From assembly GCA_028284955.1 (NCBI GenBank), contig JANQQS010000018.1, forward strand, positions 1 through 34,105: a DNA stretch of 34,105 nt, in the 5' to 3' direction. Under the pieces are notes generated by a model that saw only the letters and a list, made by a program, of their open reading frames with translations, did no database searches and was not told the origin of the DNA. Shown in pieces: positions 1 through 32,522 of the stretch. The DNA comes from Myxococcota bacterium. GTDB taxonomy: Bacteria > Myxococcota_A > Polyangia > Polyangiales > Houyiibacteriaceae. Made by a program: the position numbers and the translations under genes. Position 1 is the first letter of the stretch. Each line of letters begins with the position of its first letter.

Positions 1-94
1 GTGGGGGGAGGGGCAGCGGCCAGCCCCTCCGAAAAACCAGCGGGGCCCCGCGGAATCGTATTCCGTGGGGGGAGGGGCAGCGGCCAGCCCCTCC
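1..94 (-). repeat. Paired GC-rich hairpin repeat, gene 3' flank (cut by window edge)
   Basis: Two identical hairpins lie at 7-30 and 71-94. Each has arms GGAGGGGC and GCCCCTCC around an 8-nt loop (AGCGGCCA on the plus strand). Between them are the palindrome CGGGGCCCCG (41-50) and a hairpin with arms CGGAAT/ATTCCG (51-65). The element begins 7 bp beyond the stop codon of the deacetylase gene, read in that gene's direction. Related elements occur at 30285-30425 and 30929-31066. No T-tract follows the stems in the gene's direction; a T-rich stretch precedes them, so this is not a standard intrinsic terminator. The element may continue to the left of the window. Confidence 0.8.
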
Positions 95-101
95 AAACAA
101 T

Positions 102-1031
102 CTAGACGGCCGCAAATGCTCGCGCCGCGGTTGCGAGGGTGACGAAGCGGTAGCCGTGGTGCCTCAGGGTACGCACAACGTCGGACAAAATGGTTCGTTT
201 CTTTGCCACGGGGATGTTGATGTCCGGCTGGTTAGGGCGAAGGAATTCGAGACCATCCTGGGTATCGAGGAGGTCGATGCCGTGCAGTTCTAGATTGATG
301 AAGGGTCGCCCGACAATCGTTCGGGAAAGTAGTTTGGCGCCGTGGGACCCGGCCAGCATGAGGCTCGTTCCGATATATGGAAGTCGGCCTGAACGTCCGC
401 GTGTGACCCCGATGGGAAGCTCGAGAAGCCTCTGGCCCCGACGCCAGTACGGGGTACCTGCGCGGTAGGGGTTGGCGGGTGCCAGAAGCACCTGGGGGTC
501 TCCGATGACCGAACGGCTGGTTCGGCCGCGAAATCGAATCGACGCCATCGCCGCGGCTTTCGCCGAGTAGTACAGCGGGCAGGGAAACACGCTTGAGTCA
601 TAGAGATATCCGTCGTCGACGAGCGCATCGAACACGTCGTCTGTGATGGTGTACCCGGGCGCTCGAAACCCGACCGGAGACGCACCGCACACGCGTTTGA
701 TGGAGTCCGCGCCCATTCTGATTTCTCGACCAATGCAGTCGACGCCGCGACGAGTGAAGTCGTAGAAGTGGTGCTGCGTGTGGTTTGCGAGTTCGTGGCC
801 TCGGGCGGACAAATCACGAAGGATCGTTTGGTTTGCCGGTGTCTCTGTATCGTTTCCGATAACAAAGAAGGTTGCCGCAACGTCTAGGTCGTCGAACACC
901 TCGGCGTATCGTGTCACGGCCGTTCGATATACCGCATGGCGCGCGTCGTCAGTCGGTCGCGGTAGGCCGTGGATGGCGGAGTAACAAGGGATTTCGTCGA
1001 GGTCGACCGACAACGCGGCGAAAGCGACCAC
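102..1031 (-). CDS. Polysaccharide deacetylase (NodB-type, CE4-like)
   Basis: A protein of about 309 aa with the NodB/CE4 layout: an acidic motif near the N-terminus (D10, D12 in SVDLDE), the metal-binding motif NHTQHH (H84, H88) and GFRAPGY near residue 125. Members remove N- or O-acetyl groups from polysaccharides using a divalent metal. No signal peptide is visible, so it may act in the cytoplasm or on a lipid-linked sugar. The frame stays open upstream to 1154, inside the glycosyltransferase gene. I chose the GTG at 1031 because AGGGA lies just before it and the upstream gene stops 4 bp earlier, which suggests translational coupling. It is the last gene of the probable manA-GT2-deacetylase operon. 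The exact substrate cannot be told. Confidence 0.85.
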   Translation of the reverse strand: MVAFAALSVDLDEIPCYSAIHGLPRPTDDARHAVYRTAVTRYAEVFDDLDVAATFFVIGNDTETPANQTILRDLSARGHELANHTQHHFYDFTRRGVDCIGREIRMGADSIKRVCGASPVGFRAPGYTITDDVFDALVDDGYLYDSSVFPCPLYYSAKAAAMASIRFRGRTSRSVIGDPQVLLAPANPYRAGTPYWRRGQRLLELPIGVTRGRSGRLPYIGTSLMLAGSHGAKLLSRTIVGRPFINLELHGIDLLDTQDGLEFLRPNQPDINIPVAKKRTILSDVVRTLRHHGYRFVTLATAARAFAAV

Positions 1032-1035
1032 CGCT

Positions 1036-1776
1036 CTATCCCTGAATACGTATTGCGACGAACAACCGCGCGAGGTTTTTGAGCACGTTGGGCACTCGAC
1101 GAATGAGTCCCACCGACGGCGGCCGCTTTTCGAGCACACGCACCGGGATTTCACGGATATGAATCCCTACGCGCTCCGCGCGGATGACAAACTCCGATGC
1201 AAATAGGTCGCGCTCCACCAGGCATGCGCGGGCGACATCGACGAGGGGCGCCCTGCGGAACGCTTTCAAGCCGTGGGTGTCCGTGCCTCTGAAGCCAAGC
1301 GACACCCGAAGCATGCCGTTGATGACATGCGTGCCCATTCTGCGAAACATGGGTCGCTCATCGCTGGCGCCGGCCATGGTTTTGGAGCCGATCACCATAT
1401 CGGCTTCACGGGTCTCGAGAATTTGGATTGCGCGATGGTGGAAATCGACGTCGCAAAGGTCGATTTCGTCGCAAATGACAAACTCCCCGGTCGAGTTGAG
1501 AATGCCTTCGCGGAGTGCCTTGCCGTAGTTTGGTTCGCCAAGGCTCGTGGACCGCACTTGTGGAAACCTATCCGACAATCCGCGGGCCACTTCGACGGTG
1601 CGATCCGTGGAGCCGTTTTCGGCGAGCACGATTTCGTAAAGCCAGCCGGTTTTCCCGAGACGGTCCACTAGGTCTACGACGGCAGACTGTAGAATCGCTT
1701 CCTCGTTGTATACCGGAATGATGACGGAGATCCGGGGTTCGGAACGAGGCTCGTGTTTATGGTTGGCTGCACACAT
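1036..1776 (-). CDS. Family 2 glycosyltransferase (dolichol-phosphate-mannose-synthase-like)
   Basis: A 246-aa GT-A fold transferase. The N-terminus RISVIIPVYNEE is the typical nucleotide-sugar-binding start of GT2 enzymes, followed by AENGSTDRT and an acidic cluster (CDEIDLCD) at the expected DxD region. The length and lack of C-terminal membrane helices resemble soluble DPM1/polyprenyl-phosphate sugar transferases. It starts 42 bp after manA and ends 4 bp before the deacetylase start, so the three genes are probably co-transcribed. Because ManA feeds mannose-6-phosphate/fructose-6-phosphate interconversion, a GDP-mannose donor is an attractive guess, but nothing in the protein proves it. 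No clear Shine-Dalgarno precedes the ATG at 1776. Confidence 0.85.
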   Translation of the reverse strand: MCAANHKHEPRSEPRISVIIPVYNEEAILQSAVVDLVDRLGKTGWLYEIVLAENGSTDRTVEVARGLSDRFPQVRSTSLGEPNYGKALREGILNSTGEFVICDEIDLCDVDFHHRAIQILETREADMVIGSKTMAGASDERPMFRRMGTHVINGMLRVSLGFRGTDTHGLKAFRRAPLVDVARACLVERDLFASEFVIRAERVGIHIREIPVRVLEKRPPSVGLIRRVPNVLKNLARLFVAIRIQG

Positions 1777-1818: not shown

Positions 1819-2937
1819 TCAAGTCGCGCCGCGGCTCGAGGAGGTATCGCTGTCGGTGTGTGCGACGGCGGTGATCAGTGCAAGCACGCGCTCCGCATAC
1901 GCCGCAATTTCCGGAAGTGCGGCAGGCAAGACGAGGGAGCGTCCTGTCCTCGCCACGAGATCGAAGTCGTGACCCCTAAGACGAAGGCTCCCTGCAAGGA
2001 TGGTGAGTCCACGAAGATACGACGCTGGGGGTAAATTCAACTCGCCGCTGCCGGAAAGGCGAGTCATCCGTATTTCGTCCGGGCCCGGGCTCGGTGACCC
2101 AAAGGTGAGCGTCTGCAGTGTGGCAGGCGCTTCAGGGTTCGTTCGGCCAGCCCGCGTGCGTATCTGCGCGAGGAGCGCGGAGCCTGTCGGGCTGCTGAAG
2201 TCGGTGACGGCGAGCGCATGCTCCACGTGAAGGGCGCGTGCTTTGCCGTTTGGAGATTGGCGACCGCGCTCGTCATACAGGCGATTCCAATCCCAGTATC
2301 GGTAGGTCACGCCCCGCATTCCGGGAAGCACCCGTTGAGGCTCGAGCAAGGTGATTCCGCCGCCGATCGCGTGAGGCGTGCCCGGGTCGATCCGAAACGC
2401 ATCCCCGGGTTCTACCGGCACGAAGTTGAGGAGCGCGGAGACGTCGTCGCCACGTTCGATGGCTCGTCGCATGGTTGGTCGATCGACGTTTGGCGCCAAG
2501 CCAACGTAAAGACCTGCGCCCGGGCTGCGGTCCAGCACGTACCAACATTCCGGTTTGCCGGATTCGCCAGGATCCAGGCCGTCGTAGTCGTCGGCCGGAT
2601 GAATTTGTACCGACAGAGCCTCTTTGGCGTCGAGCAACTTCACGAGCAAGGTTGTCGAGGGCGCGCGTTTTGCAGCGCGCGCGCCGAGGGCCGCGACTGG
2701 GTCCTCTGCAATCAGCTCAGTCAACGGTCGACCGTGCTCGTCCAGGCTCGGAAAGTCGGGCTCGACGGATAGTTCCCAGGACTCCCCGATAATCGTGGTC
2801 GGAGGAACGTTCAACTTCGGCTTGTAGTGCGACGCGATCCGAGTGCCGCCCCACGGGGTTCGGGAAGCCGAGGTGAAGTTGTTGGGCCGAAGTAGCCACG
2901 GCCGTGGACTCGATGTGTGCGATTTGAGGCCGCTCAT
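1819..2937 (-). CDS. manA: Mannose-6-phosphate isomerase, type I
   Basis: A 372-aa cupin metalloenzyme interconverting mannose-6-phosphate and fructose-6-phosphate. Family signatures are present: LLDAKEALSVQIHPADD (about 101-117, with zinc ligands Q111 and H113), GKPECWYVLD (E130), GTPHAIGGG (H189) and the TYRYWDW segment near 211-217. The length fits bacterial short type I enzymes, with a modest N-terminal extension. It is the first gene of a minus-strand set with a GT2 and a deacetylase, so it probably supplies a mannose precursor for a surface glycan. The start codon at 2937 is itself part of a 14-bp tandem repeat (see the leader at 2934-2992), which may control translation. Confidence 0.9.
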   Translation of the reverse strand: MSGLKSHTSSPRPWLLRPNNFTSASRTPWGGTRIASHYKPKLNVPPTTIIGESWELSVEPDFPSLDEHGRPLTELIAEDPVAALGARAAKRAPSTTLLVKLLDAKEALSVQIHPADDYDGLDPGESGKPECWYVLDRSPGAGLYVGLAPNVDRPTMRRAIERGDDVSALLNFVPVEPGDAFRIDPGTPHAIGGGITLLEPQRVLPGMRGVTYRYWDWNRLYDERGRQSPNGKARALHVEHALAVTDFSSPTGSALLAQIRTRAGRTNPEAPATLQTLTFGSPSPGPDEIRMTRLSGSGELNLPPASYLRGLTILAGSLRLRGHDFDLVARTGRSLVLPAALPEIAAYAERVLALITAVAHTDSDTSSSRGAT

Positions 2938-11130: not shown

Positions 11131-13620
11131 GTGCCGAATAGCGGAAACAACAGCATGGAGCTGCCGCGGCCGTTCGGCCCCTACTCGTTGCTCCAGCGCC
11201 TCGCCGTGGGCGGAATGGCCGAAGTGTACATCGCGACCGCTCGGGGAATCGGCGGTTTCGAGAAACTTGTGGCGATCAAGGTGATTCATCCGCGCTACTC
11301 CGAAGACGAGCATTTCGTCCGCATGTTGGTGGAGGAAGCCAAGCTTTCGGTGTTGCTCAACCACGTCAACGTGGCTCAAACGTTCGATCTCGCGTGCATC
11401 GATGGAACCTATTGTATTGTCATGGAGTACATTGATGGAGCGGACGTATACCGGCTGTTGCGTCGTGCCTCTGAGCGCCGCATTCCGATTCCCATCGATA
11501 TCGCGGCGTTCGTAGCCGCGGAGATGTGCAACGGCTTGGACTACGCCCACCGCAAGCGGGATGTTGGCGGTCGTCCGCTCAAGATCGTTCATCGGGATAT
11601 TTCGCCTCAGAACGTGCTGATCAGCTTCGCTGGTGAGGTGAAAATCGTCGATTTCGGAATTGCCAAAGCCGCTCTTCGAACGGGCAACACCGAGGCTGGG
11701 GTCATCAAGGGCAAGTACTATTACATGTCGCCGGAACAAGCGTGGGCTGATCCCATGGATCATCGCAGCGACATATTTTCATCCGGCATCGTGCTCTACG
11801 AAATGCTGACCGGGCAAATGCTCTACAAGGAAGAAAGTTTACCCAAGCTGCTCGATAGAGTGCGGAAAGCGGAGATTCCCGCGCCGTCCAGCAAACGAGA
11901 AGAAATCCCCCGTCAACTCGACGACATTGTACTCAAAGCTCTAGCCAAAGAACCGGGGGGACGGTTTTCGTCGGCCCACGAGTTCGGTCAAACGCTGACC
12001 AACTTCTTGTACCACTATGAGCCGGCGTTCACCGCCGGGCGCCTGACCGGATTCATGAACTCGATATTCGATCCGGAGGTCGACCTGGCCACTACCGATG
12101 CATCGGGTGTCGACATGAGCAATCAGAGCCAAGCGACGGAACACACCCAGGACCACGGCGGAACCCGCGGAACGCTCGACGCTATGCGCGCAGAGGAGTT
12201 CCGTCCGGATCCGGTGCAGAGCGTTATTTTCGACGTGGGCGGCGATGATGATGTAACGCGACGGGATATTGTGGCCCAGATTGAGCCTACGACGTCGGCT
12301 GCCTCCGGCGCTGGGGCGTCCGAAAAAGGGGGGATGCGTCGGGCGGGGCGATCGCGCGAGCAAGCCACTGCCGAACTTCCTCTCGAACAAGTGTCAAGCG
12401 CTCGAGCTCATCTCGCGGTCGTATCCACCACGGTTGCCGACGATGTCGACGATTCCGAGACACTGGTCGATGCCAAACAGGACCTGAATGAAATCACTGC
12501 GCCGATACCTCCCAAGCGGTCGACCGCGAGCCTTGGCGAACAGAAGTCGCGTTCGAGGGCTCGGCCGTCACCTCCGCCGATCGCTGCCGCGCACGCTACC
12601 GGCAATCGGTCGTCTCGCCCTCCGAGGTTGTGGTCATCTCGCCCGCCCAGTTCTCACCCGCCCAGTTCTCGCCCACCCAGTTCTCATCCGCCCAGTTCTC
12701 GCCCGCCCAGTTCTCATCCGCCCAGTTCTCATCCGCCCAGTTCTCATCCGCCCAGTTCTCGTTCACCTGGTTCTCGTGCAGCTGGCCCACCGCAAGGTTC
12801 TCCAGAACGCGATGTAACTCTGCGGCCGGGAGCTGCGCGATCTGGACGTTCCTCGAGTGCACCCTCGCCATCTCGCAAAACTCAGAGTTCGTCGGCTGTG
12901 GCAAACCGCTCGAGCTCGCCTCCCGCGACGACTTCGCCAGCTAGCTTGTCGCGCAGCAACCCGGCGTCTTCCGACCGAGAAGAGAGACCGGAAACCCGCG
13001 CGAGCGGCTCATCGGATTCTTCGCGATCAAAATCCATCTTCATCACGAGAGCACGTCCGGCGATTCGGACGGTCTCGCGCTCTTTGATGACACAAAGATT
13101 TTTTTGGCCGATCGTGGGCGCTGGCGCGCTCATCGTCGGTTTGACGGTCGGAGCCTGGGTCGCCGTCCGACCGACAAGGACAAATCCTTCTCTCGATATC
13201 ATCTCCGTTCCCCCCGGCGCTACGGTGGAACTCGATGGCACGGTGTTGCCGCAGCGCACTCCGGTTCGCGCGATCCCACTCGAACGCCCTGGAGAGATGT
13301 CGCATGTCGAAATACGACTTGATGGATATGAGCCATGGTCGACCGATTTTCGCCAGCCCGAGCATCTCGCGCAGCAAATCGCAGTACTTACCCCGCGCCG
13401 CGTCACACTTTGGATCACCACCGAGCCAGATGGTGGGGAGGTATGGGTAGACGGAACCAAACGCGGAACCTCCCCAGTTCAAGTTCCGAACCTTCCCATT
13501 GGTCGAGAGCTTGTGGTTCAGGCCAGTCTAGAGGGGTATGCGACGGTGATGCAGAATGTGCGCGTCACTTCAAACGAAGACGAGCCCAGACTGACGCTAC
13601 GTTTTACCCGCCGGCGGTAG
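11131..13620 (+). CDS. Membrane-anchored Ser/Thr protein kinase with PEGA-like repeats
   Basis: An 829-aa Hanks-type kinase. The catalytic domain (about 14-300) has the glycine loop AVGGMAEVY, K50 in VAIKVI, E69, HRDISPQN (154-161), DFG (174-176) and SPEQ (200-203), so it should be active. A disordered Ser/Pro-rich linker of over 300 residues follows, with eight PPSSH/PPSSR repeats (505-544). Then come one transmembrane helix (about 657-679) and two PEGA-like beta modules outside the membrane (SVPPGATVELDG and TTEPDGGEVWVDG). This is a common myxobacterial receptor-kinase layout. The GTG at 11131 has GAGGG 8 nt upstream; ATG 11155 is the alternative. Its 3' end overlaps panC by 24 bp. Targets unknown. 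Confidence 0.92.
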   Translation: MPNSGNNSMELPRPFGPYSLLQRLAVGGMAEVYIATARGIGGFEKLVAIKVIHPRYSEDEHFVRMLVEEAKLSVLLNHVNVAQTFDLACIDGTYCIVMEYIDGADVYRLLRRASERRIPIPIDIAAFVAAEMCNGLDYAHRKRDVGGRPLKIVHRDISPQNVLISFAGEVKIVDFGIAKAALRTGNTEAGVIKGKYYYMSPEQAWADPMDHRSDIFSSGIVLYEMLTGQMLYKEESLPKLLDRVRKAEIPAPSSKREEIPRQLDDIVLKALAKEPGGRFSSAHEFGQTLTNFLYHYEPAFTAGRLTGFMNSIFDPEVDLATTDASGVDMSNQSQATEHTQDHGGTRGTLDAMRAEEFRPDPVQSVIFDVGGDDDVTRRDIVAQIEPTTSAASGAGASEKGGMRRAGRSREQATAELPLEQVSSARAHLAVVSTTVADDVDDSETLVDAKQDLNEITAPIPPKRSTASLGEQKSRSRARPSPPPIAAAHATGNRSSRPPRLWSSRPPSSHPPSSRPPSSHPPSSRPPSSHPPSSHPPSSHPPSSRSPGSRAAGPPQGSPERDVTLRPGAARSGRSSSAPSPSRKTQSSSAVANRSSSPPATTSPASLSRSNPASSDREERPETRASGSSDSSRSKSIFITRARPAIRTVSRSLMTQRFFWPIVGAGALIVGLTVGAWVAVRPTRTNPSLDIISVPPGATVELDGTVLPQRTPVRAIPLERPGEMSHVEIRLDGYEPWSTDFRQPEHLAQQIAVLTPRRVTLWITTEPDGGEVWVDGTKRGTSPVQVPNLPIGRELVVQASLEGYATVMQNVRVTSNEDEPRLTLRFTRRR
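12643..12762 (+). repeat. 15-bp tandem repeat encoding PPSS(H/R), eight units
   Basis: Eight in-frame 15-bp units, close to CCGCCCAGTTCTCAT, encode PPSSH or PPSSR inside the kinase linker. A ninth, diverged unit (SPGSR) follows. Because the period is a multiple of three, copy number can change without breaking the frame. The same DNA gives repetitive open frames in other phases; these are shadows. Confidence 0.95.
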
Positions 13621-25429: not shown

Positions 25430-26548
25430 CTAGAGCCACGGCCATGCTTCGGGGTCGACGCCCCAGCGCATTTGAAACGCGTCGCGAAGAAAGCCTTCGG
25501 CCTGCTTTGCGTGTGGCGAGAACCCGGTAATGGGTTCCTGCGAAACGTCGTCGATGTTTGAATAGTATCGCCAAATGAACAGCCCCGAGAACCATGGTTC
25601 GGGGAGAAAATACTGAAACATGACCTCGAACCCGCGGGTCTGGGCGGCCTCGTCGACCGCGCTTCCGTCTGCGTGCTCGGGCCACACGTGCGGTTGAAAC
25701 GTTGCATTCGGGCGGGCCATGTACCCGATTTCGGTAAAAAACACAGGCATGCCAAGTGTTCGGGAGATGTATGCGAGTTCGTCGCGTGCTTCTTCAGCCT
25801 TGACGTGGTTTTCGTAGAGCGTGTTGTCTTGCCATCCCAGTTCGTAGAACGCGTTGACGCCAACCAGGTCGAGCTGGTCCCAAAACAAGACGTCACTCAC
25901 TTCTTCCCACCAGTTTGCGCTGTAGGTCACGAGGCCCGGATAGATGGCGCGAACGTCGCGAATCAAGGAGGTCCAAAATTCGAGATGAGATCCCGAAAAA
26001 GACTGGCACTCCTGACCGATCGCAAACGCATCCACCCGAGAGGCGCTTGAGTCCGCCGCCCACGCCAGAATAAACTCACGATACGAGCTTAGGAACGCCT
26101 TCCAGCGCGCCTCGGAACCCGGATCGACGTGGAGCCGAAAGCCTCCCGCTTCGATCCAGATATGCGGCACCAGCAAAACACGCATGTCGCGCTCGTGGGC
26201 TTGCTCGACCATCTTCGCGATCGCGGCTCGGGTGTCTTCATAAGGTGCTTCGAAGTCCATCAAGATGTCGGTGCTTTGCTCGTCCCACATCCGCCCGTAG
26301 GGCGTGATGGCGATCCAGTTCACGCCCAACTTGCGTAGTTCATCGAGAAGCCGTGCGCTGTACTCGGTGCCGTATCCCCGGCCCGCTTGCTGGGAAGATT
26401 CGATAGGGCCGATGGTTACCCCGCGCATTCCTGAGAGCCCGGCGTCTTTCCAGGCTCGTGAGCCAGGAGGCAATCGGTGCCAGGCGAATGCAGCCCCTGA
26501 GTAACCCATCGTAGCCCCAAATGCGGCGGCGAAGTACGCCGCGAGCAA
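25430..26548 (-). CDS. GH113-like glycoside hydrolase, membrane-anchored
   Basis: About 372 aa. One hydrophobic N-terminal segment (signal anchor) is followed by a TIM barrel resembling family GH113, whose known members are beta-mannanases. Supporting motifs: GVTIGP near the start, NWIAITPYGRM, the acid/base candidate E in AIGQEC, the NAFYELGW strand and the nucleophile candidate E in FFTEIGYMARP. I chose the TTG at 26548 since it opens directly into the anchor; a GTG at 26647 (with AAGGG 10 nt upstream) would overlap the preceding gene by 68 bp and add a polar extension. It is the last gene of the mglB-mglA-lipoprotein run. Substrate is inferred only. Confidence 0.82.
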   Translation of the reverse strand: MLAAYFAAAFGATMGYSGAAFAWHRLPPGSRAWKDAGLSGMRGVTIGPIESSQQAGRGYGTEYSARLLDELRKLGVNWIAITPYGRMWDEQSTDILMDFEAPYEDTRAAIAKMVEQAHERDMRVLLVPHIWIEAGGFRLHVDPGSEARWKAFLSSYREFILAWAADSSASRVDAFAIGQECQSFSGSHLEFWTSLIRDVRAIYPGLVTYSANWWEEVSDVLFWDQLDLVGVNAFYELGWQDNTLYENHVKAEEARDELAYISRTLGMPVFFTEIGYMARPNATFQPHVWPEHADGSAVDEAAQTRGFEVMFQYFLPEPWFSGLFIWRYYSNIDDVSQEPITGFSPHAKQAEGFLRDAFQMRWGVDPEAWPWL

Positions 26549-26969: not shown

Positions 26970-27587
26970 CTAGCGAGACGCCTGGTTGCCACCGGTGGCA
27001 CCGCTTCCTCGCTTGAGCTCAGTGAGCACCAGTTTCGCAATCGCTTTCAGCGTATCAAATACGCCTTCCCCAGTCGTAGCCACCGCGCCAAAATCCGGAA
27101 CGCCGTTCGGGTTGAGCAAGTTCTTCAGCTCCTCCTCGGGCGCGATGCTTGGCATGTCTCGCTTGTTGTACTGTACGACGTAGGGCAACCGATCCAGGCT
27201 GTAGCCTTGCTCTGCCAGGTTCGTCCGGAGATTTTCCATCGATTCGATGTTGGCTTCCATCCGCGCAATCTGCGAATCGGCCACAAAAACCACTCCATCC
27301 ACACCCTTGAGGATGAGTTTTCGGCTCGCGTCGTAGAACACCTGCCCCGGAACCGTATAGAGGTGGAATCTTGTCTTGAATCCTCGAATCTCTCCGAGGG
27401 CCAAGGGCAAGAAATCGAAAAACAGCGTACGTTCCGTCTCCGTGGCGAGGGAGATCATTTTCCCTTTCGCGTCCGGATTGGTCTTGTTGTAGATGTACTG
27501 AAGATTGGTCGTTTTACCGCACAGACCGGGCCCATAGTAGACGATCTTGCAGTTGATTTCTCGTGACAGGTAGTTGATGAACGACAA
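26970..27587 (-). CDS. mglA: Polarity GTPase MglA
   Basis: A 205-aa Ras-like GTPase nearly identical in pattern to Myxococcus MglA, which in the GTP form marks the leading cell pole and directs motility. P-loop GPGLCGKTT (19-27), the FDFLPL switch region, TVPGQ (in place of DTAGQ) and QYNKRD (guanine specificity) are all present. Homology starts at the TTG at 27587 ([13 protein letters not shown]), which has GAGAGGA just upstream and lies 10 bp after mglB. The frame extends upstream but overlaps mglB. MglB is its expected GAP. The C-terminus ([14 protein letters not shown]) is slightly longer than in Myxococcus. Confidence 0.96.
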
Positions 27588-29156: not shown

Positions 29157-30284
29157 ATGGCTCAGGTCAACCCGCTCACTCGTGAACTGCTGGTCAAGCT
29201 GGTCTACTATGGGCCGGGGCTGTGCGGAAAAACGACCTCTCTGCAGTGCGTACACCGGGTTTCTCCCCCAGAAAGTCGCGGTCAAATCGTGTCGCTGGCG
29301 ACGCCTGTCGATCGCACGCTCTACTTCGATTTCTTGCCGTTGCGCTTGCCCCCGGTGCGTGATCATCACGTGCGGCTGCAGCTGTTCACAGTACCGGGCC
29401 AGGTATATTTCAATGCAACGCGCAAGCTGGTGTTGACTGGAGTCGACGGGATTGTGTTCGTTGCCGATTCGCAGGTCGAACGACAAGACGCCAATCTCGA
29501 GTGCATGGAGAATCTGGCTTCGAACTTGGAAGACCAAGGTCGAAGCCTCGCCGAAGTTCCTTTGATCATGCAGTACAACAAAAGGGATCTTCCGAATGTC
29601 CTTCCCATTGTGGAGCTTGAGCGTTCGCTCAACGCCCTCGGCGTTCAATCGTTTTCCACGTGCGCGACGCGCGGGGAAGGCGTGCTGGATGCGCTCGACG
29701 GTTTAGTGCAGGTCGTCCTCCGGGACCTCGAAGCGCGCAACGTGCTCGGTGCCCCGACCGCGCCATCGACGGAGCCGCGTTTCGAACGCGCTGAGGAAGC
29801 CCTTGATGAGCAGATCGGTCGGGCGAGCGAGGAAATTTGGAGAGATCGCGCGGAGCGCCCCACCGAAGCGATCGCGGCACCGTCGATTCAGCCACGCGTC
29901 AGCATGGATCCTATCCCCGTCGCGCCGCCGGGCACAGGTGGAGCGGGGCCGAGCTGGGTGGCTCTTTTTTCGGAGGACGCGCCCCTTATTCGCGCCCTCG
30001 AAGAGGACATCGCGGCGGGTCGACTGAGCGATGCCGTCATTCGCTGCGAGGAGCTTGCTACGGCAATTCTGACCCACGCTGCTCATCAAGCAGGAATTTC
30101 GGCTCAGTTTGTCGAGTCCGCGCTGGTCGCCCCCCTGGTTGGCCTAGAAGGAGAACGATGGTTCGCGTTTCGGCGGCTGGTCCGCCGGGCTCGGTCCGGC
30201 GGTCCCATCGACCTCCGTGACGCCCTCCGCGCATACGCCATGCTGATCGAAACACGCCTCCGCCGTGACCGTTTGCTCGGTTAA
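29157..30284 (+). CDS. Second MglA-like GTPase with C-terminal helical extension
   Basis: 375 aa. Residues 1-195 are an MglA-family GTPase: GPGLCGKTT (19-27), FDFLPL (57-62), FTVPGQVYFNATRKLVL (77-93) and QYNKRD (139-144). Unlike MglA, it continues with a Pro/Ala-rich linker (about 195-265) and a helical domain of about 110 residues (for example FSEDAPLIRALEEDIAAGRL, IDLRDALRAYAMLIETRL) that I cannot place. It lies about 1.1 kb from the mglBA genes and diverges from them. Conserved P-loop and NKxD suggest it binds GTP. It may share or compete for MglB, or link polarity to another output through the extension; this is inferred. Confidence 0.85.
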   Translation: MAQVNPLTRELLVKLVYYGPGLCGKTTSLQCVHRVSPPESRGQIVSLATPVDRTLYFDFLPLRLPPVRDHHVRLQLFTVPGQVYFNATRKLVLTGVDGIVFVADSQVERQDANLECMENLASNLEDQGRSLAEVPLIMQYNKRDLPNVLPIVELERSLNALGVQSFSTCATRGEGVLDALDGLVQVVLRDLEARNVLGAPTAPSTEPRFERAEEALDEQIGRASEEIWRDRAERPTEAIAAPSIQPRVSMDPIPVAPPGTGGAGPSWVALFSEDAPLIRALEEDIAAGRLSDAVIRCEELATAILTHAAHQAGISAQFVESALVAPLVGLEGERWFAFRRLVRRARSGGPIDLRDALRAYAMLIETRLRRDRLLG

Positions 30285-30425
30285 TTGGAGGGGCTGACCG
30301 CAGCCCCTGCATCGTTCGGAGGGGCTGACCGCAGCCCCTCCCCCCGCGGAATACGATTCCGCTGGGCCCCCCACCCGCCGCCGGCCGCGTTTGCGGCCGT
30401 CCCCACCGCGTAGCGGCGGGGCCCC
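30285..30425 (+). repeat. Composite multi-hairpin element, copy A
   Basis: It starts directly after the GTPase stop codon. In order: hairpin AGGGGCTG/CAGCCCCT (30289-30308), a 9-bp spacer, hairpin GGAGGGGCTG/CAGCCCCTCC (30318-30341), hairpin GCGGAAT/ATTCCGC (30346-30362), hairpin CGGCCGC/GCGGCCG (30382-30399), and CCCCACCGC/GCGGCGGGG with one mismatch (30401-30421). The same order occurs in reverse at 30929-31066. No T-run follows the stems. Confidence 0.85.
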
Positions 30426-30570
30426 GGTTACGTTGGGCTTCAGCGTTGGGGCAAGACAGCGGACGCCGACAACACCTCGAATCCGCTACCGCGGTTCACG
30501 GTCAGGCAACCAGTTCACGTGCGTCGTGGCGGGGGAGCTTGGGTGAATCGTCGGGGTTGTACCCTGACGA

Positions 30571-30593
30571 GAGGGTTTGGGTGCCAAACCCTC
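30571..30593 (-). repeat. Hairpin, third arm variant of the family
   Basis: Arms GAGGGTTTGG (30571-30580) and CCAAACCCTC (30584-30593), a perfect 10-bp stem with a 3-nt loop. On the minus strand it is preceded by TTGTTT, as in the other family members. Relative to the arms GGGTCTG/CAGACCC at 31010-31033, both sides have changed so that pairing is kept. Confidence 0.75.
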
Positions 30594-30642
30594 AAACAAC
30601 ATAGCCGCGGGGCCCCCCACCCAACGCCGCTTCGCGCTGCGC

Positions 30643-30671
30643 GGGGGCCCCTACGCCCCCTTGCTTTCTTC
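30643..30671 (+). terminator. Possible weak intrinsic terminator
   Basis: GGGGGC (30643-30648) and GCCCCC (30655-30660) form a 6-bp GC stem, followed by a T-rich but interrupted stretch (TTGCTTTCTT). It could end plus-strand transcription from the GTPase gene, about 360 nt downstream of its stop. The broken T-run keeps confidence low. Confidence 0.3.
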
Positions 30672-30770
30672 GTGCCGTGTTCGCGGTGAACTGCTTTCGT
30701 TCGGACGGTGTCTGCCGTCTGGTTGGCTCTTCTATCCGTGTCGTTGGAAGGCGTGATTGTGTCCTAAGTC

Positions 30771-30812
30771 CGGCCGCTTTGCGGCCGCCCCACCGCGGAG
30801 CGGCGGGGCCCC
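30771..30812 (+). repeat. Partial copy of the composite element (3' hairpins only)
   Basis: CGGCCGC/GCGGCCG (30771-30787) and CCCCACCGC/GCGGCGGGG (30788-30808), followed by CCCC. It matches the last two hairpins of copy A (30382-30425) in sequence, order and orientation, with small loop differences. The leading GGAGGG hairpins and the GCGGAAT hairpin are absent. Confidence 0.8.
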
Positions 30813-30928
30813 AGCAGTTCAACCCTACGAAACCGAGCACGTGGTTCCTGGCGGGCGACCTGACAACGGGTCGAAGGTCTGTTGTCGTTTGAAGTCTTGT
30901 CCCAACGCCGAAGTCCGACGAGACCGGG

Positions 30929-31066
30929 TCCCCGCCGCTCTGCGGTGGGGACGGCCGCGAACGCGGCCGGCGGCGGGAGGGGGCCCCCGCGGAATCGTAT
31001 TCCGCGGGGGGAGGGTCTGCGGCCAGACCCTCCCAACAATACAGGGTCTGCGGCCAGACCCTCCAA
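30929..31066 (-). repeat. Composite multi-hairpin element, copy B (inverted)
   Basis: Read on the minus strand, just after the stop codon at 31071 and a TTTTTT run: hairpin AGGGTCTG/CAGACCCT (31062-31043), a 9-bp spacer, hairpin GGAGGGTCTG/CAGACCCTCC (31033-31010), hairpin GCGGAAT/ATTCCGC (31005-30989), a CGGCCGC hairpin, then the CCCCACCGC/GCGGCGGGG stem (30950-30930). It matches copy A module for module, but both GGAGGG hairpins carry T-A in place of the G-C pair. Confidence 0.85.
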
Positions 31067-31070
31067 AAAA

Positions 31071-32423
31071 TCACAGCTGAAGTCTGAGCGTGGCGTAGGG
31101 CTCGAGCTCAATTGCGCCGCGGATGCGAAATCGATTGCCAGGCAAGTCGACGACCGGTCGATATTGGGGGTTCACGATTCCCTCCGGGCATTGTCCTGCC
31201 CGAGCATCGCTAGCGCCTGCTACTGCGCCTACGTTGCACGGATTTCCTGCGGTAATTAGGTGAGGCGTGACGTAGGTAATCAGCGTTCCCACATGGAGTC
31301 GCACTCGACGCGACGCCTGGATCTCCAGCGCCAGGCGCCCTCCCAAACGGCCATGTGGGTTGACTTGGGTGAGCCCGGTGAACGCGACCGAGCGAAATCC
31401 TCCTGCCGGGGAGATCCCTTCGAAGTTCACGTTTCGCAGAAAAGGAGACGCGGATGTGCCGAGTGCATCAAAGAGAGGGGTGTAGTCGCGGCCTTCGGAT
31501 ACGTACGTTGCGCGAAACCCCACGTCGACGGCGACTCGCTGCCAAGCCTCCCGGTTCTCCCATGGGATCCAGGCCGCCCCTGCTCTAAACGTGCCCCTTT
31601 TGGGGGGATTGGTTACGTCCGAGCCCTCGAGGTTTCCTCCTGGCTGAAATCGATCCTTAGCGCGTCCCGGCCACTCCGAGTGAAACAAAAGGCCTCCATA
31701 GGGCTCAAAGTAGCGAAAACGTCGGGAAAGTTTGGTCTCTACGCGCAGCGCGTGCGTACCGCGGCTCACTCCTTGGCCGCATTCTACGGCGAGGTCGGCG
31801 TCGCATGGTTCAAGTATTCTGCCGATGCCGAAGCGACCTTCCGCGGCGATTACCCAGTTGGGTAGATCCGGACGTCGTTCTTGGCCCAAGATTCCCCACG
31901 AGATTCCCACCGCGAGATGCTCCGGACCAAATCGGATAGGGGAGCGAAATGGGACCCCAAATAGGGGAATGCGCCCGCGACCATCCGGGTCCAGCACGCC
32001 GAGCACGAAGTCGTCGCCGTTGCTCAGTCGACGGGAATCTCGCACCACCACCGGGAGACGCGCGTAGAGCGCAAGGTCGTGGTAGAGCCCGATATCGATG
32101 CCCGCGTCGACGATGGATTTGTGATGCGTAAACGTCGCCGCGCCGGCAAACGTGCTCGGATTGCCCGATAGACCCGACGCAGCGGTCGTCGTTTCCCGTT
32201 CTATCGTGCCGCGCGTGTATACGTGGCGAAACCCGAGTGTGATATCGAAATCAAACGGATCCCCAGGCTCTGCCGCGTCGATCACGTCGGTGAATTCGAT
32301 GGGGCTGTTCAGTAGGGTCAGCGAATCGTCGGCGTGAACAGACTTCTTCGGGGCAAGCGCAAGTAGCGCGGCGAGCACAAGCAGGCTCGTCCGGGTCCCA
32401 GACCAGAATGCGCGAAGGACCAT
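31071..32423 (-). CDS. Outer-membrane beta-barrel-like protein
   Basis: About 450 aa. Signal peptide (SLLVLAALLALAPKKSVHA) and then a mature part full of alternating strands: DITLGFRHVYTRG, IDIGLYHDLALYARLPVVV, HLAVGISWGILG, LRVETKLSRRFRYFEPYGGLLFHS, AVDVGFRATYVS, GRLGGRLALEIQASRRVRLHVGTLITY. The last strand IELEPYATLRLQL ends close to the C-terminus, as in barrel proteins. I recognise no specific transporter family. I chose ATG 32423; the frame is open to 32507, but that part lies in the 25-bp direct repeat of the promoter region. It is divergent from the GH5-type gene. Confidence 0.78.
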   Translation of the reverse strand: MVLRAFWSGTRTSLLVLAALLALAPKKSVHADDSLTLLNSPIEFTDVIDAAEPGDPFDFDITLGFRHVYTRGTIERETTTAASGLSGNPSTFAGAATFTHHKSIVDAGIDIGLYHDLALYARLPVVVRDSRRLSNGDDFVLGVLDPDGRGRIPLFGVPFRSPIRFGPEHLAVGISWGILGQERRPDLPNWVIAAEGRFGIGRILEPCDADLAVECGQGVSRGTHALRVETKLSRRFRYFEPYGGLLFHSEWPGRAKDRFQPGGNLEGSDVTNPPKRGTFRAGAAWIPWENREAWQRVAVDVGFRATYVSEGRDYTPLFDALGTSASPFLRNVNFEGISPAGGFRSVAFTGLTQVNPHGRLGGRLALEIQASRRVRLHVGTLITYVTPHLITAGNPCNVGAVAGASDARAGQCPEGIVNPQYRPVVDLPGNRFRIRGAIELEPYATLRLQL

Positions 32424-32472
32424 GACGCGCGGAGCATACGTACGCGACCGGCAAAGGGTCAAGCCGCCGCCC

Positions 32473-32522
32473 GCGACTGCACCAGACTGACTACCCTGCG
32501 ACTGCACCAGGCTGACTACACC
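32473..32522. repeat. 25-bp direct repeat in divergent promoter region
   Basis: Two adjacent copies (32473-32497 and 32498-32522) of a 25-bp unit beginning GCGACTGCACCAG, differing at a few positions. They sit between the barrel-protein start (32423) and the GH5-type start (32617). The 25-bp spacing is about 2.5 helical turns. They could be regulator sites shared by both genes or a simple duplication. Confidence 0.6.

Follow-up and report, generated by a model that had tools for sequence, protein, structure and literature searches.

A dispersed REP-like repeat of several ordered hairpins, preferentially placed behind stop codons, in a Polyangiales genome

Integron attC sites lie directly behind stop codons and keep their structure while their sequence drifts. 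Pneumococcal BOX elements consist of structured modules in variable arrays and have no gene of their own, and the BIMEs of E. coli are known to bind proteins of the gyrase, nucleoid-protein or condensin type. REP repeats are intergenic and lie near the 3′ ends of ORFs in convergent or codirectional arrangement, often at less than 20 bp and, between convergent ORFs, at less than 20 bp from both (PMC3733652). Their sub-families have alternative complementary stem residues, and the frequent G-T pairs of the tagged REPs have been taken as a sign of RNA function (PMC3733652). REP-like repeats usually consist of one short tagged hairpin with a cognate transposase; the repeat of the Polyangiales described here is a long ordered series of hairpins.

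The window, the whole stretch of 34,105 nucleotides that was analyzed, corresponds to contig C101 in a draft genome of 6.07 Mb and 223 contigs. An initial annotation, made from the sequence alone, had described a family of hairpins at gene 3′ ends, and when the sequence was re-read every hairpin it named was present in its place. What it had missed is that these hairpins are fragments of a longer composite repeat; all of them are parts of one dispersed family of composite, palindromic, multi-hairpin DNA repeats (Table 1). Their arms read GGAGGGGC/GCCCCTCC at 7-30 and 71-94 (8 bp followed by an A-A mismatch), GGGGCTG/CAGCCCC at 30287-30310 and 30318-30341, GGGTCTG/CAGACCC at 31010-31033 and 31041-31064, and GAGGGTTTGG/CCAAACCCTC at 30571-30593. 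The two double changes pointed out between these arms (G-C to T-A and C-G to T-A) are real. Also borne out was the observation that copies begin within a few bp of a stop codon in the same orientation relative to the gene, as the distances from stop to GG foot are 7 nt (gene 102-1154, minus), 2 nt (29157-30284, plus) and 6 nt (31071-32507, minus).

Table 1. Hairpins, composite elements and adjoining genes in the window.
Feature	Position	Strand	Remarks
Hairpin A, outer head	71-94	-	7 nt past the TAG stop (104-102) of gene 102-1154
Hairpin B, CCCC[A]CGGAAT acg ATTCCGCGGGG	46-70	-	contiguous with A
Second copy of hairpin A	7-30	-	T-rich leader TTTTTC before it; contig end cuts the array off
Composite element (A, A, B, linker, C, D, middle)	30285-30480	+	starts 2 nt past the TAA of gene 29157-30284
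Imperfect hairpin A, tandem with next copy	30287-30310	+	
Hairpin A, GGAGGGGCTGaccgCAGCCCCTCC	30318-30341	+	
Hairpin B, CCCCGCGGAATacgATTCCGCtGGG	30342-30366	+	
C-rich linker B-C, CCCCCC[AT]CCCG..	30367-30381	+	among the best kept stretches across genera
Hairpin C, CGGCCGC..GCGGCCG	30382-30399	+	
Hairpin D, CCCCaCCGC..GCGGcGGGG	30401-30421	+	
Hairpin E (TCGTCGGGGttgTACCCTGACGA)	30548-30570		inner hairpin, second inverted head type
Hairpin F (GAGGGTTTGGgtgCCAAACCCTC)	30571-30593		outer hairpin, second head type
Inverted composite copy	30871-31066	-	faces convergent gene 31071-32507
Hairpin A, T-A variant, GGAGGGTCTGgccgCAGACCCTCC	31010-31033	-	
Outermost imperfect hairpin A	31041-31064	-	6 nt past the TGA stop (31073-31071) of gene 31071-32507
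Gene	29157-30284	+	Pfam Arf-type GTPase domain; stop adjoins composite element
Gene	31071-32507	-	no Pfam match; convergent; stop adjoins inverted element
Gene	102-1154	-	Pfam polysaccharide deacetylase; copy 1-94 behind it

The two composite elements (30285-30480 and 30871-31066) are 196-nt inverted copies, 84% complementary, at both ends of one convergent gap. Covariance-model matches were found at 30318-30425 (104.4 bits), at 30926-31033 on the minus strand (106.5 bits), over hairpins E and F at 30493-30594 (minus) and at 1-94 (minus, 53.5 bits), where the contig end cuts the match off. Rfam 15 gave no match in the window, and only chance-level matches in 30250-31110. Three other repeats were seen in the same stretch. 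A 15-nt tandem repeat, present eight times at 12622-12786 in gene 11131-13620, reads on the plus strand as AQFSS/AQFSP pentapeptide repeats, and a 14-nt tandem repeat (ATCTGGGTTCGCTC) at 2922-2991 covers the start of gene 1819-2937 (minus) and the positions just upstream. A 53-nt inverted similarity (85%) connects 27497-27549, in a minus-strand gene, with 29195-29247 in the Arf-type GTPase gene 29157-30284, which suggests two related GTPase genes in opposite orientation.

In gene sense, the repeat unit runs from the stop codon through a leader, hairpin A, hairpin B and a C-rich linker to hairpins C and D. The leader is usually 2-8 nt long and T-rich, with T at positions -6, -5 and -3 before GG in 73, 87 and 78 of 101 copies, respectively. 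Hairpin A has the general form GGAGGGGCTGgccgCAGCCCCTCC and is directly followed by hairpin B, CCCCGCGGAATacgATTCCGCGGGG; the linker takes the form CCCCCC[AT]CCCG[CA]C in the genome copies. Longer copies continue for about 150 nt beyond D and then contain hairpins E and F. Read from the other strand, E and F are a second head of the same kind, with a T-rich leader, an outer hairpin (A/G)AGGGTCTGGcacCCAGACCCT, an inner hairpin and a C-rich linker; full copies therefore turn an outward head to each convergent gene. The homologous unit measures at least 108 bp and has four hairpins, and lone A hairpins are also present in arrays. Inverted pairs with a spacer, as in BIMEs and REPINs, occur both as the arms in the window and as the outward A-B and F-E heads of full copies.

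The covariance model of hairpins A to D gave at least 151 matches in the window's genome, and DNA similarity recovered 45 copies, almost all 84-100% identical, next to unrelated genes and many at contig ends; these counts are lower bounds, as the repeat probably breaks the assembly. Contigs C37, C47, C53, C54, C83, C103 and C168, among others, have a copy within about 500 bases of one of their ends. Chance is excluded, since the longest form occurred in 69 exact copies genome-wide and its reversed pattern not once, and a 0.77-Mb sample held 73 family hairpins against 1 in its shuffled copy.

Placement relative to genes was determined in this sample, which comprised 774,644 bases on ten contigs, picked partly for length and for carrying copies, with 533 genes called by a purpose-written codon-usage method. 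All but two of the family hairpins (71 of 73) were intergenic. Elements occupied 17 of 84 convergent gaps (46 hairpins), 6 of 223 codirectional gaps and 2 of 102 divergent gaps; the difference between convergent and other gaps (17 of 84 vs. 8 of 325) was significant (Fisher p = 1.3e-7). The outer hairpin usually starts 2-8 nt past the stop codon. Among 83 distinct first hairpins at most 60 nt from a stop, the distance from stop to AGGG was most often 8 nt (16 of 83), corresponding to 6 nt to GG; as this wider set was chosen from loci around known copies, frequencies were taken from the 0.77-Mb sample only. Their position at gene 3′ ends is non-random, which the initial annotation had proposed to check by tabulating distance and orientation to stop codons. 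Nine copies form another peak, at 20 nt, and 8 of them share TAGagcNNtgatcagtttgcctg, from a different repeat family fused to the head. Just 24 of 204 convergent 3′ ends (about 12%) have an element, so that it is not a general terminator and most genes manage without it. The convergent enrichment was not reproduced in a Sandaracinaceae genome (G025; 3 occupied gaps, 0 convergent), where hairpins were few and ORFs were called through elements.

A further repeat family, TAGAGCNNTG[AG]NC.., begins at TAG stop codons of genes, in the window at 25430-25432 and 1036-1038 (both minus). It had 18 copies in the 0.77-Mb sample, and in 9 of the 18 the TAG was the stop of a called gene. In this it is like the GTAG-REPs, which supply TAG stops to genes (PMC3733652).

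Pairing was scored in two sets of copies. In 26 copies from the window's genome 97.4% of the cells were paired and 9 pairs had changes on both sides, with a covariation score of 0.116 compared to at most 0.045 for slid partners. As these copies belong to a dispersed family of near-identical members, much of the covariation within the genome comes from few variants copied many times. In 46 model-fitted matches from ten genomes 95.8% of the cells were paired, 33 of 36 pairs had double changes, and the score across genera rose to 0.353, with maxima of 0.056 for slid and 0.098 for shuffled controls. We counted pairs in the model-fitted alignment, since several rows of a MAFFT alignment of cross-genus A-B heads were misregistered; the slid and shuffled controls were supplied because a model-fitted alignment leans towards structure. 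The search of the genome and its relatives with a covariance model, as suggested in the initial annotation, therefore found covariation exceeding both controls, and the claim of covariation was right and holds more strongly across genera than inside the window. Read directly, hairpin B gives the same picture, being GCGGAATacgATTCCGC in the window's genome, ATTGGGCaaaGCGCCAAT in G025, GTTGCGGgccgCCGCAAC in G013 and ATGCGGCaaaGCCGCAT in G176, with well kept flanking linkers.

The near absence of G-U in stems beside a stop codon is a simple sequence test of the folding strand. Selection on the gene-sense RNA would be expected to leave more G-U pairs than A-C mismatches. In 123 copies of the window's genome, read on the gene-sense strand, 35 G-U cells were counted vs. 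85 A-C cells, and in hairpins A and B of the same copies 10 vs. 70; the numbers of positions with G-U and with A-C were about equal. A-C cells become G-U when the opposite strand is read, and the strand tolerant of G-U is not the mRNA-sense one. As G-U is not favored over A-C, nothing singles out the mRNA-sense strand; the counts are as compatible with a DNA fold, or with folding of either strand, as with RNA, and selection may act on either strand or on double-stranded DNA. Among copies from Sandaracinaceae, G-U outnumbered A-C by 21 cells to 1, nearly all of them in helix C, where the alignment is loose.

The RNA fold of 30282-30480 has an energy of -110.2 kcal/mol (z = -3.8). No T-run was found behind the hairpins, hairpin A being followed by CCCC. 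The terminator test was passed by 1 of the 24 element-bearing convergent ends, a number equal to that in shuffles, and canonical U-tract terminators were present at 4 of 180 convergent gene ends in the 0.77-Mb sample vs. 0 in shuffles. A canonical intrinsic terminator was rejected, because the hairpins are not followed by a U-tract and the genome hardly uses such terminators. Since convergent genes nearly always lack canonical terminators, their termination may depend on Rho or on U-less hairpins, and the hairpins of the element could for the same reason matter at these ends.

Other genera and families of the Polyangiales have the same architecture with rewritten stems, and the repeat is old enough for family-level divergence within the order. 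When 84,980 species genomes, possibly not including the window's own, were scanned at the DNA level with the A-B pattern, only Myxococcota matched, namely Sandaracinaceae bacterium MED-G138 (17 stretches, with element coordinates that agree with the contigs of genome G037) and Myxococcales bacterium CG_2015-01_69_45. The broader model gave matches at E <= 1e-4 in 7 of 183 genomes of the order under strict filters; the family is therefore patchy. One genome (G034) had a single weak copy. Two near-identical Sandaracinaceae genomes (G025 and G037), from a different family than the window's, had 55 and 18 matches. Their heads lie behind stop codons (L107, rpoZ; L141, L133, L136 and others), behind terminator U-tracts (L036, L093, L138), and behind an SRP RNA gene (L140) and a tRNA gene (L123); a further head lies behind a tRNA gene in G028 (L088), all RNA genes being named from sequence reading. 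Some Sandaracinaceae copies sit past an already complete terminator, so that a terminator function would be redundant there. In another genus of this family (G176), a TGA precedes 4 of the 5 stop-adjacent copies by 6 or 7 nt. At one locus of G025 (L189), the gap behind the element is filled with additional tandem iterons (e.g., GGCTCGCTTCGCTGCGCTCGCTC).

The rpoZ stop was readable in 22 genomes, and a head was present there in two only: an A-B head 7 nt past the stop in G025, and a head of the F-E type 5 nt past it in G007, a genus of the window's own family. A congener (G014) has the same rpoZ protein end and is without the head; this pair is not a clean empty site, because the gene order downstream of rpoZ differs and synteny breaks at the stop. 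Matched loci of G025 and G037 were 98-100% identical, and all matched sites were occupied in both. One of these loci had identical flanks and several clustered differences in the element, which suggests conversion or recombination between copies. As neither an empty site nor a target duplication was found in the comparison of G025 and G037 flanks or at the rpoZ loci, the case for mobility is the dispersal of the copies.

A search for Y1_Tnp genes covered the window's genome and 36 relatives and gave 30 loci, one weak gene in the former and 29 loci in the latter. No family hairpins were found near these loci, and Y1_Tnp genes were absent from several element-bearing relatives. The RAYT link was rejected, as no family hairpin stood in the flanks of any of the 30 loci. 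Neither GTAG nor CGTC was found within 7 nt upstream of the foot in any of 28 oriented A heads.

We give a little over an even chance to the reading that the hairpins in the window are heads of a dispersed REP/BIME-like composite family, which has multiplied in this Polyangiales genome and for which a two-way effect at 3′ ends is the likeliest role. Copies would have spread as DNA and then been kept where they were least harmful or somewhat useful. The family is dispersed, is placed behind genes with its heads facing outward, and keeps Watson-Crick pairing on both strands while the sequence of the stems is replaced. Just past its stop codon, a transcript from either side would meet a hairpin of very high stability; a two-way effect is likeliest because transcripts from both sides would end in such a stop-adjacent structure. 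The element could hinder or terminate transcription from both genes and also block 3′ exonucleases, thereby protecting 3′ ends. Inverted heads facing both convergent stops and the lack of a sense-strand preference for G-U support the two-way reading. The composite repeat probably has this two-way 3′-end effect, and its function as RNA is an inference. A more far-reaching statement is rather doubtful and is offered tentatively: a mobile composite element, tag-less and RAYT-less, might place itself immediately behind stop codons and other transcript ends and serve convergent genes as a two-way terminator or 3′-end cap in a lineage nearly without canonical intrinsic terminators.

A selfish REP/MITE-like element is a possible, although less likely, explanation. 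Its placement behind stop codons and the T-tracts of terminators would result from the insertion mechanism and from the purging of harmful insertions, and its hairpins would be recognized by a transposase as single-stranded DNA without any role for the host. Whatever the context, terminators and SRP RNA or tRNA genes included, a T-rich leader does precede the copies, they form head-to-tail arrays, most gene ends are without an element, pairing restricted to Watson-Crick pairs suits a DNA hairpin, and published REPs are similarly placed at less than 20 bp from both convergent ORFs (PMC3733652). However, the repeats of the window's genome and of its relatives have no linked RAYT/Y1 transposase gene, neither empty sites nor target duplications were found, and the tight spacing to stop codons would need a targeting rule. 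This rival remains strong chiefly on account of the Sandaracinaceae copies behind complete terminators. RNA structures owned by the genes themselves (terminators or 3′-UTR elements) and evolving in place by compensatory changes, as the initial annotation had proposed, appear improbable to us. They would agree with the stop-adjacent position, the fixed orientation and the covariation, but long, nearly identical copies beside unrelated genes show that copying took place between loci, and a head at rpoZ in just two of the 22 readable genomes does not fit. What stands of that proposal is pairing kept beyond controls and a non-random position at 3′ ends; a transcript-end RNA is not established, given that there is no excess of G-U over A-C, no U-tract and an element at only a minority of ends. 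Still less probable is a DNA-level site in the positively supercoiled region between convergent genes, either a cruciform or a putative site for gyrase, a nucleoid protein or condensin. Such a site would leave the spacing of few nucleotides to the stop and the copies behind tRNA and SRP RNA genes unexplained, even though strand-symmetric pairing, the preference for convergent gaps, the conserved C-rich/G-rich linkers and the analogy with the protein-binding BIMEs of E. coli speak for it. The Polyangiales repeat is a good system for testing a selfish repeat against a two-way transcript end.

Compared with known systems, the repeat shares with integron attC sites the position directly behind stops and a structure that is kept under sequence drift, but it is dispersed singly, in both orientations and behind core genes such as rpoZ. 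No RYYYAAC/GTTRRRY core sites were seen by eye at its outer boundaries, and an attC identity, suggested by the stop-adjacent structure, was set aside by this inspection only. Like pneumococcal BOX it is a modular composite in variable arrays without a gene of its own, a likeness by description and not by sequence to an element from an unrelated lineage. With intrinsic terminators it has in common a GC-rich hairpin directly behind the gene in fixed orientation; it differs from them in its lack of a U-tract, its start 2-8 nt past the stop, the long homology beyond the hairpin and its presence at a minority of gene ends. The repeat resembles REPs, REPINs and BIMEs (PMC3733652, PMC2817692, PMC3116915), which are likewise high-copy, palindromic and intergenic near ORF 3′ ends, have sub-families with alternative complementary stem residues, and form inverted pairs and arrays. 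A REP unit is a single palindrome of 20-40 bp, whereas this repeat strings 4 to 6 hairpins together in fixed order over about 110-300 bp. Unlike REPs, it has no GTAG/CGTC tag at its foot and no linked RAYT, G-U is not favored, and its stems are rewritten between families of one order with pairing and linkers kept. As a high-copy, mostly intergenic palindrome that prefers gene 3′ ends and especially convergent gaps, it resembles bacterial REP repeats, without their tag and without an associated transposase; since tag, unit length and RAYT link were each tested and each differs, we class it as REP-like and not as a REP. We regard the composite hairpin repeat as new, and its placement pattern is one already published for REPs.
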